Positions 35,988 to 61,874 of a stretch of 64,000 nt of DNA are shown piece after piece (positions within the stretch are counted from its first letter, which is position 1; each line of letters opens with the position of its first letter). The notes below the pieces were generated by a model. It searched no databases. It saw only the letters and a list, made by a program, of their open reading frames with translations, and was not told where the DNA came from. This stretch comes from Flavobacteriales bacterium. Lineage in GTDB: Bacteria; Bacteroidota; Bacteroidia; UBA10329. Made by a program: the position numbers and the translations under genes. Location: positions 62,001 through 126,000 of the forward strand of contig WGMW01000015.1 of the NCBI GenBank assembly GCA_016124845.1. The letters are read 5' to 3'.

Positions 35988-36300
35988 ACGGCAAGGCACC
36001 AGCCGTTTTAATGGTTTTGAAGACAGGTCTATCAATGGCGAGTGTGATTCTGTTTTTCAGACGCCCCTGTTTTCAAAACCTCGCAGGTTTGGTTTGGGGA
36101 GGTGCTGGAAGATTATCAGACACCAAGAAGCAGGCGATATGAACTCACCCACTGCTACAATCCATTTAGTACGCCATACGGAAACGGTTTTTTATCGACC
36201 TGTAATCGCTGTTTGTCATTCCGAGTGTGCGAGGAATCTTTGAGATGCTTCCTTCGTCAGCACGACAAGCGGAAGAGTTGAGAGCTGGCGCGGGGATTGA
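35988..36300. repeat. gene-free stretch with two repeat fragments
   Basis: No supported ORF. 36060-36105 has GTTTTCAAAACC followed by TCGCAGGTTT, a fragment of an AAACCTGCGAGG-type hairpin repeat. 36213-36262 has TGTCATTCCGAGTGTGCGAG followed by GAATCTTTGAGATGC and GTCAGCACGACA, an imperfect inverted repeat of the TGTCATTCCGAG family. Nothing else is recognised. Confidence 0.6.
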
Positions 36301-57488: not shown

Positions 57489-59696
57489 ATGGAAATAGAA
57501 GTAGGATCGGATCTTAAAGAAGCGCTGAAAAAGCACTTCGGGTTTAACAAATTCAAAGGAGAACAGGAAAGCATTATCCGTAGTGTTCTCGATGGTAACG
57601 ATACGTTTGTGATCATGCCAACCGGTGGCGGCAAATCGCTGTGCTACCAGTTGCCCGCATTGCTTTCGGATGGCACGGCCATCATCGTCTCTCCGCTTAT
57701 CGCGTTGATGAAGAATCAGGTCGATTCCATCCGCAGTTTCGGGGCAGATGATGGCATTGCGCACTTCCTCAACTCATCGCTCAACAAAGGTGAGGCTGAC
57801 CGTGTGCGAACCGACATCAAAGAAGGTAGAACGAAGCTGCTTTACGTGGCACCCGAATCATTGAACAAGCAGGAGAACATTGATTTCTTCAAGGATGTGA
57901 AGATCTCTATGGTGGCCATTGATGAAGCACATTGCATCTCGGAGTGGGGGCATGACTTCCGCCCTGAATACCGCAGGCTACGCCCGATGATTGAGTCGAT
58001 CGGAAGCGTGCCGGTCATGGCATTGACCGCCACGGCTACGCCAAAGGTGCAGCAGGACATTCAGAAGAATCTGGGAATGACCGATGCGAATGTCTTCAAG
58101 TCGTCCTTCAATCGCGAGAATCTCTATTACGAGATCCGTCCGAAGACGAAGAACGTGGCGCGCGACATGATCAAGTTCATCAAGCAGCATCCTGGTAAAT
58201 CGGGGATCGTGTACTGCCTCAGCCGCAAGAAGGTGGAGGAAATGGCCGAAACGCTGCAAGTGAACGGCATCAAGGCGTTGCCTTACCACGCAGGATTGGA
58301 TGCGGCCACACGCGCCAAGCATCAGGATGCATTTCTGATGGAAGATGCCGATGTGATCTGCGCTACCATTGCTTTCGGAATGGGAATTGACAAACCAGAC
58401 GTTCGGTTCGTCATTCATCATGATATTCCGAAGAGTTTGGAAGGATATTATCAGGAAACAGGCCGTGCCGGCCGTGACGGTGGCGAAGGAAACTGCATCG
58501 CGTTCTACAGCTATGACGACATCATCAAACTGGAGAAGTTCATGCAGGGCAAACCCATCTCCGAGCAGGAAATTGGCAAGCAACTGCTTTCGGAGGTGGT
58601 GACCTACGTGGAGACCTCCGTGTGCCGAAGAAAGTTCATCCTCCATTATTTCGGTGAGGAGTTTGATGCCAAGCAATGCGATGACCATTGCGACAACTGC
58701 AAGCATCCGAAAAAGCAGGAGGAGGCCAAGGACGAAATGGTCATGGTGCTTCAGACCGTACTCGACATCAAAGAGAAATTCAAGATCAAGCATGTAGTGA
58801 ACATCATGCTCGGTGTCAATTCCAGCCAGATCAAATCATACAAGCACGATACGCTCGAAACATTCGGGGCTGGGGCAGAGCAGGGCGAGCGTTACTGGCA
58901 GTCGCTGGTGCGGCAGGCCATCATCAACGGTTTCCTTTCCAAGGACATTGAGAACTACGGGTTGCTGAAAATGACCGATGCAGGCCACGCGTTCCTTGCC
59001 AAGCCGACCTCGTTCATGATGACCATTGATCACGATTATGAGACGGCCACAGAAGAGGAGGAATCCATGCCTGTGGGAAATATGAAGGGCGGTGGCGCGG
59101 CAGACGATGTGCTGCTCAAGATGCTGAAAGACCTCCGTAAGGACATTTCGAAGGAAGAAGGACTGCCTCCGTTCGTCATTTTCCAAGACCCATCGTTGGA
59201 AGACATGGCGTTCCGCTATCCGATAACCATGGATGAGCTGAAGGACATCACCGGTGTGGGTGCCGGAAAGGCCAAGAAATACGGGGAACCGTTCTTGGAA
59301 CTCATTCAGGAGTATGTGGAGGAGAACGAGATAGAGCGCGAGCAGGACATGGTGGTGAAGACCGTGGTCAACAAGTCGAGCAATAAGGTGTACATCATCC
59401 AAAGCATCGACCGCAAACTGGATCTGGAGGATATTGCCGATGCCAAAGGACTGAGCATGGACGACCTGCTGACCGAGATCGAGCATATCGTGAGTTCGGG
59501 CACCAAGGTGAACATCGACTATTACATTGATGAGGCCGTGGATGAGGACAAGCAGGACGAGATCTACGAGTACTTTCAGGAAGAGGCCGAGACCGACAGC
59601 ATTGAGGAGGCCTTGGCCGAACTTGGCGAGGACGACTACACCGAAGAGGAGATTCGTTTGGTACGCATCAAGTTCATTTCCGAGTTCGGGCATTGA
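57489..59696 (+). CDS. recQ: ATP-dependent DNA helicase RecQ
   Basis: RecQ unwinds DNA 3' to 5' in recombination and repair. The 735-residue protein has Walker A PTGGGKS, the DEAH box in AIDEAHCISEWGHDFRPEYRRL, helicase motif LTATATPKV, the QETGRAGRDGG motif, a four-cysteine zinc site (CRRKFILHYFGEEFDAKQCDDHCDNC) and an HRDC domain (about 540-612). A C-terminal acidic region follows (about 613-735: LLTEIEHIVSSGTKVNIDYYIDEAVDED), which is a common extra in Bacteroidota RecQ. The stop lies at the edge of a repeat cluster. Confidence 0.96.
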   Translation: MEIEVGSDLKEALKKHFGFNKFKGEQESIIRSVLDGNDTFVIMPTGGGKSLCYQLPALLSDGTAIIVSPLIALMKNQVDSIRSFGADDGIAHFLNSSLNKGEADRVRTDIKEGRTKLLYVAPESLNKQENIDFFKDVKISMVAIDEAHCISEWGHDFRPEYRRLRPMIESIGSVPVMALTATATPKVQQDIQKNLGMTDANVFKSSFNRENLYYEIRPKTKNVARDMIKFIKQHPGKSGIVYCLSRKKVEEMAETLQVNGIKALPYHAGLDAATRAKHQDAFLMEDADVICATIAFGMGIDKPDVRFVIHHDIPKSLEGYYQETGRAGRDGGEGNCIAFYSYDDIIKLEKFMQGKPISEQEIGKQLLSEVVTYVETSVCRRKFILHYFGEEFDAKQCDDHCDNCKHPKKQEEAKDEMVMVLQTVLDIKEKFKIKHVVNIMLGVNSSQIKSYKHDTLETFGAGAEQGERYWQSLVRQAIINGFLSKDIENYGLLKMTDAGHAFLAKPTSFMMTIDHDYETATEEEESMPVGNMKGGGAADDVLLKMLKDLRKDISKEEGLPPFVIFQDPSLEDMAFRYPITMDELKDITGVGAGKAKKYGEPFLELIQEYVEENEIEREQDMVVKTVVNKSSNKVYIIQSIDRKLDLEDIADAKGLSMDDLLTEIEHIVSSGTKVNIDYYIDEAVDEDKQDEIYEYFQEEAETDSIEEALAELGEDDYTEEEIRLVRIKFISEFGH

Positions 59697-59697
59697 G

Positions 59698-59780
59698 TTC
59701 TCGATACGCTTCGCACTCGAACTGACCAACCGCGCCAGTCACTTCGAGTGATTTCGAAGAATGAGAAATCGTATCGAGAA
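59698..59780. repeat. palindromic repeat copy A
   Basis: Outer arms TTCTCGATAC (59698-59707) and GTATCGAGAA (59771-59780), inner arms CACTCGAACTGAC and GTCACTTCGAGTG. The repeat starts two bases after the recQ stop codon. Copies B (59798) and C (60227) share both arm pairs. Confidence 0.95.
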
Positions 59781-59797
59781 GTCATTCCACGCCACAG

Positions 59798-59889
59798 TTC
59801 TCGATACACGCTCGTTCCTCGCGCACTCGAACTGACGCTTGCGTTTGTCACTTCGAGTGATCTTGACGAAGGAAAGATCGTATCGAGAA
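59798..59889. repeat. palindromic repeat copy B
   Basis: Same arms as copy A (59798-59807 and 59880-59889), exactly 100 nt after copy A, with a diverged interior (ACACGCTCGTTCCTCGCG). It ends 27 nt before the GIY-YIG start. Confidence 0.95.
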
Positions 59890-59916
59890 GTCCCGCAAGT
59901 AATCTATCTTCCAACC

Positions 59917-60207
59917 ATGAAGACCATGTTCGTATATCTGCTGCGATGCAGCGATGGAACGTATTACACGGGCGTTACAAACGATGTGGATCGCAGATTA
60001 AACGAACATCAGAACGGACAAAATCCAAATGCATACACATTTCGGAGACGACCAGTTGAGTTGGTGTATGTGCAGATGTTTCTCGACCCCATGAATGCGA
60101 TTGAGTTTGAGAAGCGATTGAAGAAGTGGTCGAAAGCCAAGAAGGAAGCGTTGATAAACGGTGAATTCAATGAATTGCCAAAGCTTTCCAAGAAAAAGTT
60201 CCGTTAG
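59917..60207 (+). CDS. GIY-YIG nuclease-domain protein (UPF0213-like) flanked by repeats
   Basis: A 96-residue single-domain GIY-YIG protein: FVYLLRCSDGTYYTGVT (the GIY-YIG Tyr pair), NDVDRRLNEHQNG with the catalytic-type Arg, FLDPMNAIEFEKRLKKWSKAKKEALI. The Glu of EFEKRLKKWSKAKK fits the metal-binding Glu of the family. ATG 59917 is preferred: upstream frame extension would run through repeat copy B. Family relatives are small DNA nucleases of unproven role. Here it has repeats A and B on one side and C on the other. Confidence 0.9.
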   Translation: MKTMFVYLLRCSDGTYYTGVTNDVDRRLNEHQNGQNPNAYTFRRRPVELVYVQMFLDPMNAIEFEKRLKKWSKAKKEALINGEFNELPKLSKKKFR

Positions 60208-60226
60208 CTTTTTTGCCTACACACGG

Positions 60227-60313
60227 TTCTCGATACGCTTCGCACTCGAACTGACCAACCGCGCCAGTCACTTCGAGTGATTTTTTGACGAAGGAGAAAA
60301 ATTGTATCGAGAA
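60227..60313. repeat. palindromic repeat copy C
   Basis: Arms TTCTCGATAC (60227-60236) and GTATCGAGAA (60304-60313). From the left arm through the inner palindrome it is nearly identical to copy A. It lies between the GIY-YIG gene and the convergent T9SS cargo gene. Confidence 0.95.
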
Positions 60314-60325
60314 GTGGTAGAAGAG

Positions 60326-61777
60326 TTACTCCTTAATCACCTTCACCGAAAAGCTGCGGCCCTTTTCATCACAGCCTTGGAGAATATACAGGCCGCTCGG
60401 CCAACTGGAAACATCAATGCGCAGCCGCTCCGATTCTGAAAAGGAGGGGCTGGAGGAGGTCATAAGCCTTCCATTCACATCAAAAACCGTCATTTCGAGC
60501 GAAGCCGAGAAATCTGCCTTTTCAATATTCAGCACATCATTCACAGGGTTGGGCCACACATCTACCATCACGATCTTTTCCTCTTCCTCAATGCCTACCG
60601 TGCAGTTGGGGTACGGGCAGCCGATGCTATCCACCTTCAATAGCCAGGCATCCTGCGAGTTATTATCCAAATTGATGGCCTGACCGCTCAACAGAAAACC
60701 ACCATCATCCGTGGCAAGAACACCATAGAAAAGGTCGGTGTATTGGTTATGATTGTATTTCCGCTGCCATAGTAGATTGCCTTCGCTGTCTGTTTTCAAA
60801 AGCCAGCCTGCATTTCCTTCACCTGAGTTATCAGTTACGCCTGTTCCAACAAATGAGCCTTCTTCCAGTTCAAGGATTTGGTTGATTTCAGTTGCATCAC
60901 TTCCTGGGTAGAGATACTCTTCCTGCCAAATTATAGTACCACTGCCATTTACTTTGATCAGCTTTCCTTTATCGACACCATCAATGATCTGTGCACCAGC
61001 TAAGAGGTAATTTCCATCAGAAAGTCGAATAATGTCGGTGCCAGTTTCCATATTCGAGGTTCCATACGTTTTATGCCATATCTCATCACCTTGCGGGTCG
61101 GTTTTGACCAGATAGAAATCCCGCTGTCCGTGACCATAACTTCGGGTCCAGCCGAGAAGGAAGAAATCACCGTTGGGCAGTTCAAGCAGGTCATAGGCTG
61201 CTTCCCAGTTTCCACCACCATAAAACTTCCGCCATTGTTCTGTACCAGAAGAGTCGGTCCTTATGAACATGTTATTTGCCGAATTGCCACTCGTATCTGC
61301 AGCTTGAGCATACATGGCATAACCACCATCAGCACATTGAATCCCAGCAATTCCGAAATCATCTCCATCTCGCGGGTATTCCACAGTCCATATGGCTTCG
61401 CCTATATCATTGAATCTGATCAGCTGTAAATTCTGGCCTACTCCACTTGTGTCTTCAATGGAATTGAAAAATACGTACCCACTATCGGGATGCGTGATCA
61501 AGGTTCCAGCCCTCATGCTTCTTGCCCTTGGGTTAAAAACATTTGTGAGGAGTTCATTTCCTTCTTGATCCATTCGAACGAAGTATAATACTGCCGTATC
61601 AGCATATACATCTCTTGATCTTGCCACAAACACCAGATTTCCTTCGTTTGAAACCGCGTTCAGTAGTATTTCTGTTTGGTGATCGTAGTCAAACAGCTTG
61701 TCAAAATAGATCGGTTGCGCCCAACCACCCAGCGCGGTCAGTAGAAACGGAAGAAGGAACAGCAGCCGTTGAAACAT
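60326..61777 (-). CDS. secreted repeat protein with T9SS type A sorting domain
   Basis: A 483-residue protein with a signal peptide (MFQRLLFLLPFLLTALGGWAQ). Seven or more propeller-like repeats follow, with the pattern GGY...KTDxxGDEIWHKTYG (for example FYLVKTDPQGDEIWHKTYG, WLLKTDSEGNLLWQRKYN). The type A sorting domain is at the C-terminus (VWPNPVNDVLNIE ... VFDVNGRLM ... WPSGLYILQG ... FSVKVIKE). It is a probable T9SS cargo. The C-terminal side faces repeat copy C. Confidence 0.9.
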   Translation of the reverse strand: MFQRLLFLLPFLLTALGGWAQPIYFDKLFDYDHQTEILLNAVSNEGNLVFVARSRDVYADTAVLYFVRMDQEGNELLTNVFNPRARSMRAGTLITHPDSGYVFFNSIEDTSGVGQNLQLIRFNDIGEAIWTVEYPRDGDDFGIAGIQCADGGYAMYAQAADTSGNSANNMFIRTDSSGTEQWRKFYGGGNWEAAYDLLELPNGDFFLLGWTRSYGHGQRDFYLVKTDPQGDEIWHKTYGTSNMETGTDIIRLSDGNYLLAGAQIIDGVDKGKLIKVNGSGTIIWQEEYLYPGSDATEINQILELEEGSFVGTGVTDNSGEGNAGWLLKTDSEGNLLWQRKYNHNQYTDLFYGVLATDDGGFLLSGQAINLDNNSQDAWLLKVDSIGCPYPNCTVGIEEEEKIVMVDVWPNPVNDVLNIEKADFSASLEMTVFDVNGRLMTSSSPSFSESERLRIDVSSWPSGLYILQGCDEKGRSFSVKVIKE

Positions 61778-61874
61778 CGCCCTAAGTTAACCAACGGTGT
61801 TATGTGTTGTCAACTTTCTGGGAGCTGATGGCCGTTTCTGTTGCGTGGTTTTCATTTTCCGATCTCCGATTCAG

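Follow-up and report, generated by a model that had tools for sequence, protein, structure and literature searches.

The question raised by the locus described here is whether a small nuclease gene and the inverted repeats that surround it belong together, and what the nuclease might do with the repeats. The locus is part of a window of 64 kb, by which we mean the whole stretch of DNA that was analysed. A sequence-only reading of this window had described three copies of an inverted repeat with the same outer arms, two before and one behind the gene, and all of the coordinates check out: the arm pairs TTCTCGATAC / GTATCGAGAA are found at 59698-59707/59771-59780 (copy A), 59798-59807/59880-59889 (copy B) and 60227-60236/60304-60313 (copy C). 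The claimed spacing of 100 nt between the starts of A and B is measured as 100, and the first copy does touch the recQ stop, with TGA at 59694-59696 and copy A directly after it. Each copy had been taken for a single palindrome, but is in fact made of two tagged hairpins in opposite orientation. The features of the locus are as follows.

57489-59696, plus strand: recQ, the upstream neighbour, with its stop codon TGA at 59694-59696
59697-59726, minus strand: tagged hairpin A-, GTCAGTTCGAGTGCGAAGCGTATCGAGAAC, left half of copy A; its left-hand partner is missing
59738-59781, plus strand: tagged hairpin A+, GTCA-CTTC-GAG...CGA-GAAG, right half of copy A
59738-59836, unstranded: gene-less unit GTCA...TGAC made of A+ and B-, 99 bp, one long hairpin (z = -2.8)
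59797-59836, minus strand: tagged hairpin B-, left half of copy B
59847-59890, plus strand: tagged hairpin B+, right half of copy B; the gene begins 26 bp downstream
59847-60255, plus strand: gene-bearing unit (GTCA-hairpin, nuclease gene, hairpin-TGAC), 409 bp
59917-60207, plus strand: GIY-YIG nuclease gene, 96 aa, UPF0213-like
60226-60255, minus strand: tagged hairpin C-, left half of copy C, same sequence as A-
60267-60314, plus strand: tagged hairpin C+, right half of copy C; its right-hand partner is missing

The hairpins at the locus have the form GTCA-NNNN-GAG-...-CGA-N'N'N'N', which occurs six times, arranged as three inverted pairs with TGAC-(10 or 11 nt)-GTCA at the centre of each. 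Copies A and C have 58 nt in common without a single difference. The exact sequence TTCTCGATAC is found at six sites in the 64-kb window, and these are the six arms of copies A, B and C; if one mismatch is allowed there are 12 matches where 3.1 are expected, and 12 or more were reached in 0 of 100 shuffles. Read as blocks that start with GTCA and end with TGAC, the locus contains two, one of 99 bp without a gene and one of 409 bp with it. The nuclease gene is placed between the second and third hairpin pair, i.e. between B+ and C-, so that 59847-60255 makes up one such GTCA...TGAC unit. When folded with standard DNA energies, the single hairpins are weakly stable (z between -1.3 and 0.5), and the 99-bp dimer at 59738-59836 is the sole fold that is clearly more stable than its shuffles. 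There are eight GTCA-tagged hairpins in the window, six of them at the nuclease locus. Of the other two, the one at 60489-60512 is of another sub-type (GTCATTTCGAGCGAAGCCGAGAAA) and stands alone inside a T9SS-type gene (60326-61777, minus strand), making it a repeat within a reading frame, and the one at 36215-36236 (GTCATTCCGAGTGTGCGAGGAA) is distant from the nuclease locus.

The 96-residue protein matches PF01541 over residues 4-76 (E = 5e-19) as well as the UPF0213 proteins 1zg2 (E 2e-23) and 1ywl in the PDB. It consists of a single GIY-YIG domain within the 80-100 residues or so that are typical of UPF0213 / COG2827, and has the catalytic Tyr, Arg and Glu; Y7, Y17, G19, R27, H31 and E65 are kept in 109-110 of 110 relatives. 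Modelling gave a GIY-YIG fold (pLDDT 87) that has 1zg2 as its best structure match and resembles UPF0213 and Slx1-type GIY-YIG structures. GIY-YIG enzymes hydrolyse DNA, and joining of strands by the enzyme itself is not expected.

In the same genome, which has a size of 4.36 Mb, there are five matches to the nuclease protein. The closest paralogue, on contig C5, is 59% identical and lies amid at least eight hairpins of another family, GTCATCCTGAGTG...GTATCGAAGGATG and GTCATGGTGAGTGATC...GTATCGAACCATG, while the paralogue at C15:243353 has hairpins of a CCCCGAG...CGAGGGG type on either side. Single copies of the window's own repeat family are scattered elsewhere in the genome. The fifth match (C51:114) lies between the copies of a direct repeat, GGGGCTTCGTAGCGAGAGGGAGATTTGAACTCCCG, that resembles the 3' end of a tRNA (L007:1-36, 345-381); insertion into a tRNA gene was considered for this paralogue, and ARAGORN detected no tRNA gene there.

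Is the association seen in the window more general? Among 79 related genomes, 53 have a match to the nuclease at E <= 0.001. The gene is patchily distributed, often present in several copies and sometimes interrupted by stop codons. When 29 loci from relatives were each compared with themselves, flanking repeats were visible in most of them; their sequences differ between genomes, and they reduce to one motif, stem-GAG-...-CGA-stem'. This motif was fixed on the 29 relatives (L032-L060) and then tested on 80 other GIY-YIG loci (L061-L140), which were collected by an alignment-based contig search, come mostly from Bacteroidota with some records named Ignavibacteria, Nitrospinota and others, and include one duplicate of an earlier locus (L072). 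Within 400 bp of the gene the motif has 276 matches, distributed over 77 of the 80 test loci, and in 66 of the 80 it is found at most 100 bp away. Per kb, the test loci have 7.3 motifs at 0-100 bp from the gene, 5.7 at 100-200 bp and 0.13 at 5-10 kb, making the density near the gene 57-fold higher than at the largest distance. An overall surplus of hairpins or terminators around these genes can be rejected as the cause, since 17 permutations of the two trinucleotides, with equal base composition, give 1-5 matches against 276 for the real motif. Together with the window shuffles and a scan in which the GTCA tag and a 4-bp stem were fixed and the inner trinucleotides left free (GAG/CGA 229 times, the next pair 4 times), these permuted cores also rule out chance repeats, and the relatives' loci with gene and repeats rule out an oddity specific to the window. 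With the tag left free instead, GTCA was recovered in 224 of 278 hairpins near the genes.

In general form the repeat is written YGTCA-NNNN-GAG-(loop or second hairpin)-CGA-N'N'N'N', with copies as inverted hairpin pairs. C or T precedes GTCA in nearly all of the gene-bearing units listed, and adjacent hairpins are mostly inverted with respect to each other (-+ 53, +- 51, ++ 21, -- 14). The GAG/CGA core would permit two G.A pairs next to each other, along with one G-C pair. The commonest layout, found at 32 of the 80 test loci, is GTCA-hairpin / gene / hairpin-TGAC, and the 27 gene-bearing units that were measured are 354-629 bp long.

Repeat and enzyme have also diversified together. Repeats were scored as having a 5-nt loop, a 6-nt loop or a long second hairpin, and on a tree of 110 nucleases the repeat type changes 18 times, compared to 39-56 times when labels are shuffled (300 trials). 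The tree is based on 95 columns and has many weak forks; the shuffle test is independent of any single fork. The type with the long second hairpin dominates one nuclease group of 31 sequences, and both a nuclease group whose repeats are without the GTCA tag and a pair with a GCCA tag are found on starred branches. In Chryseobacterium and in Flavobacterium, more than one repeat type occurs, and the types track the nuclease group and not the host. Proximity in an independent test set, this co-diversification, and the dispersed copies and empty sites described below strongly support that the pairing of nuclease and repeat, as judged from sequence comparison, is real and general.

In three congeners (G004, G002 and G007), recQ is followed by a ctaA/COX15-like gene within about 60-100 bp, and the nuclease-repeat block is absent there; in the window, the recQ-ctaA interval (59697-61803) is about 2.1 kb long and contains the repeats, the nuclease gene and the T9SS-type gene. 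G007 has a nuclease gene of its own, 79% identical and accompanied by repeats, at another place. A terminator-like hairpin stands behind recQ in the congeners, and none is seen in the window. A second example is the interval between fabH and cutC in Flavobacterium: it measures 84-144 bp where the gene is absent, 179 or 223 bp where it holds an inverted unit that lacks a gene, and 615-1171 bp where both gene and repeats are present. Empty sites, for which the sequence-only reading had called, are available at two places, in the second case alongside repeat-only and gene-bearing versions. On a tree of the fabH-cutC flanks at least nine changes between gene and no gene are needed, some of the forks being weak. 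Four of the genes from the fabH-cutC site are included in the protein tree and are closely related to each other, so that recurrent gain is no more likely than a single ancient insertion that was lost several times. In the same interval a different palindrome, AAACCTAACAGGTTTTAAAAACCTGTTAGGTTT, is seen in L203, L204, L207 and L209, which are from species without the nuclease gene; it is shortened in L188.

Away from the gene, pattern searches, on which all genome copy numbers are based, find up to 239 exact matches to the repeat per genome, compared to 0-1 for a reversed control pattern. In G064 the dispersed units have unrelated flanks and start precisely at GTCA, and most also end precisely at TGAC. 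Several of them (L268-L276, a small sample) are located between short inverted A- and T-run flanks, as if in the loop of a terminator hairpin. G064 thus hints at insertion into such loops, but in a larger set no more than about one further terminal position pairs, as a reflection of the same C or T that both members of a pair carry before GTCA.

It had further been proposed that repeat number should go along with presence of the gene, and here the correlation is moderate. A good gene match is present in 19 of 23 genomes with at least five repeats and in 27 of 56 others (p = 0.006, with cut-offs that were set after the tables had been seen); against this, G047, G054 and G070 have 16-239 repeats and no detectable nuclease gene, so that repeats outlast the gene or have other helpers. 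In G047, whose genome is complete in a single contig, there are 239 tagged repeats and no UPF0213-type gene was detected; the enzyme may have been lost recently, or a different helper may be at work.

A similar partnership has been described elsewhere. Neisseria meningitidis has a family of site-specific single-stranded nucleases, Ssn, of the GIY-YIG, UPF0213 type, that acts at a repeat with hundreds of genomic copies, reportedly cuts this repeat as a single strand and reportedly modulates transformation. The likeness, at the level of the family, is that of a GIY-YIG/UPF0213 protein with a multi-copy repeat; the phylum and the repeat architecture are different. The locus had been announced as a new pairing of nuclease and repeat. 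As a kind, such a pairing is probably already known, given that Neisseria Ssn and its repeat have been published; what is new here is a variant that is broad in Bacteroidota, has a distinctive core and shows co-diversification. None of the papers found in a literature search joins GIY-YIG/UPF0213 to REP, REPIN, MITE, RAYT or dRS3. GIY-YIG homing endonucleases share the catalytic domain and its setting in a candidate mobile unit, but they differ in residing in an intron, an intein or a conserved coding site, and the protein described here is a stand-alone domain of 96 residues without a known DNA-binding extension. A homing element in a coding site can be ruled out, as the unit is intergenic both after recQ and at fabH-cutC.

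On the side of the repeats, Di Nocera et al. (2013) have described REPs with a CGTC tag, among them dRS3 of Neisseria and RPE-4 and RPE-6 of Rickettsia, with Bacteroidetes among the hosts; they concluded that this class has no transposase of its own, and found no tyrosine transposase gene with CGTC repeats at its flanks (PMC3733652). The Bacteroidota repeats share with these an unpaired terminal YGTC tag (CGTC or TGTC), a short hairpin, mostly inverted dimers and dispersal in intergenic DNA. They fall outside the class in its narrower definition, a stem of 8-9 bp, a loop of 4-5 nt and mostly a CCA tail, as they have a 4-bp stem, a GAG/CGA internal loop, often a second hairpin, 5-40 nt in between and no CCA tail. 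It is very probable that the nuclease partners a widespread bacterial repeat family for which that 2013 survey knew no enzyme. In its layout the system resembles REP/REPIN and RAYT, with a gene flanked by its own tagged hairpins, dispersed gene-less dimers and joint diversification; unlike these, it has a 96-residue GIY-YIG hydrolase where they have an HUH tyrosine transposase, and a YGTCA tag where theirs is GTAG.

We consider it probable that this is a partnership of the REP/RAYT kind, in which a UPF0213-type nuclease cuts its own YGTCA-tagged hairpins and the GTCA...TGAC block is gained, lost and dispersed. The stand-alone enzyme would recognise its own hairpin family, with the hairpins flanking its gene as cognate sites, and would nick or cut them, probably as folded single strands exposed in replication or DNA uptake. 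After such cuts, the block from GTCA-hairpin to hairpin-TGAC, about 0.4 kb with the gene or 0.1 kb without it, could be removed, duplicated or transferred by host repair and by recombination between repeats, and this block would be the unit that comes, goes and spreads. Hairpin binding and cutting, the preference for single strands, and the copying or deletion of units via host repair are what we infer for this enzyme. That the hairpin is the substrate or binding site of the nuclease would be the simplest account of the tight flanking and the co-diversification. A folded single strand is the likely substrate given short imperfect hairpins with an unpaired tag, and given the single-strand cutting reported for Ssn. 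The original proposal, that the nuclease acts on the repeats and moves them, fares well as far as a RAYT/REP-like pairing is concerned (proximity, co-diversification, dispersal and empty sites), and movement of the repeats by the nuclease is plausible; in its simplest form it does not agree with the three gene-less genomes with repeats, nor with E. coli yhbQ, which has no such repeat.

Other explanations start from the same observations. It is quite possible, if somewhat less than an even bet, that the nuclease has been domesticated as a host factor in the manner of Neisseria Ssn and would cut incoming or lagging-strand single-stranded DNA at the repeats and so limit or shape recombination without any selfish movement, the repeats being maintained as its sites. 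Membership of the same UPF0213 family, the CGTC-type repeat in Alphaproteobacteria (see below), the long co-diversification and the reported effect of Ssn on transformation would all fit this. A patchy, multi-copy distribution with broken copies, absence at orthologous sites, and repeats that crowd around the gene itself and are not merely spread genome-wide would fit a selfish pair better. There is little to recommend the idea that the gene has inserted or survived in repeat-rich terminator regions, with hairpins that serve as RNA terminators or stabilisers and not as substrates: the repeats are indeed intergenic, directly behind the recQ stop here and behind the fabH terminator in Flavobacterium, and some G064 units are found within terminator-like inverted flanks, but motif density is near background within about 1 kb, which shows that these regions are not generally repeat-rich, and hitch-hiking does not predict that tag, stem and loop track the nuclease phylogeny inside one genus. 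Equally improbable is that another enzyme, e.g. a RAYT or an IS200-type transposase elsewhere, mobilises the repeats with the GIY-YIG gene as cargo, for although some genomes are rich in repeats without a detectable GIY-YIG gene and known GTAG REPs are tied to RAYTs (PMC3733652), Di Nocera et al. saw no tyrosine transposase gene between CGTC repeats and cargo would not co-diversify with the repeat.

The REP/RAYT-like reading names a candidate enzyme for a class of repeats long described without a dedicated transposase, together with its recognition element (tag, 4-bp stem and GAG/CGA core). Bacteroidota and other phyla contain scattered repeats of types such as GTCATTCTGAGCGAAG... and CCCTGAGCTTGTCGAAGGG, and how these arise and persist can now be put to a direct test with small proteins and short oligonucleotides. 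Different clades offer dozens of natural pairs of enzyme and site, and these could yield single-strand, sequence-specific nucleases. More tentatively, and with some doubt on our part, small GIY-YIG nucleases may be the missing enzymes of the whole YGTCA/CGTC-REP superfamily, with a block GTCA...TGAC of about 350-450 bp and one gene of less than 100 codons that spreads itself via cutting and host repair and not via a transposase. If true, this would be among the smallest autonomous mobile elements known.

Outside Bacteroidota, a UPF0213-type gene is present in 48 of 142 alphaproteobacterial genomes, in up to 11 copies. At 19 of 30 alphaproteobacterial UPF0213 loci no recognisable tagged hairpins were found nearby, and such repeats were not seen near E. 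coli yhbQ or near one S. meliloti, one Methylobacterium and two Sphingomonas loci. The other 11 of the 30 have GTCA-tagged perfect hairpins within 300 bp, one or two of which look like chance. Hairpin density is 2.4 per kb within 300 bp of the gene vs 0.28 per kb beyond 600 bp, nested stems being counted more than once in both. As Di Nocera et al. (PMC3733652) use the term, the alphaproteobacterial repeats next to UPF0213 genes are CGTC-REPs, and those of Azospirillum and others have the stem, loop and tail of that class. In Azospirillum lipoferum 4B, the UPF0213 gene is located between sufB and sufC and is accompanied by three copies of CGTCATCCCCGCGAAGGCGGGGATCCAG or its TCGTC form.
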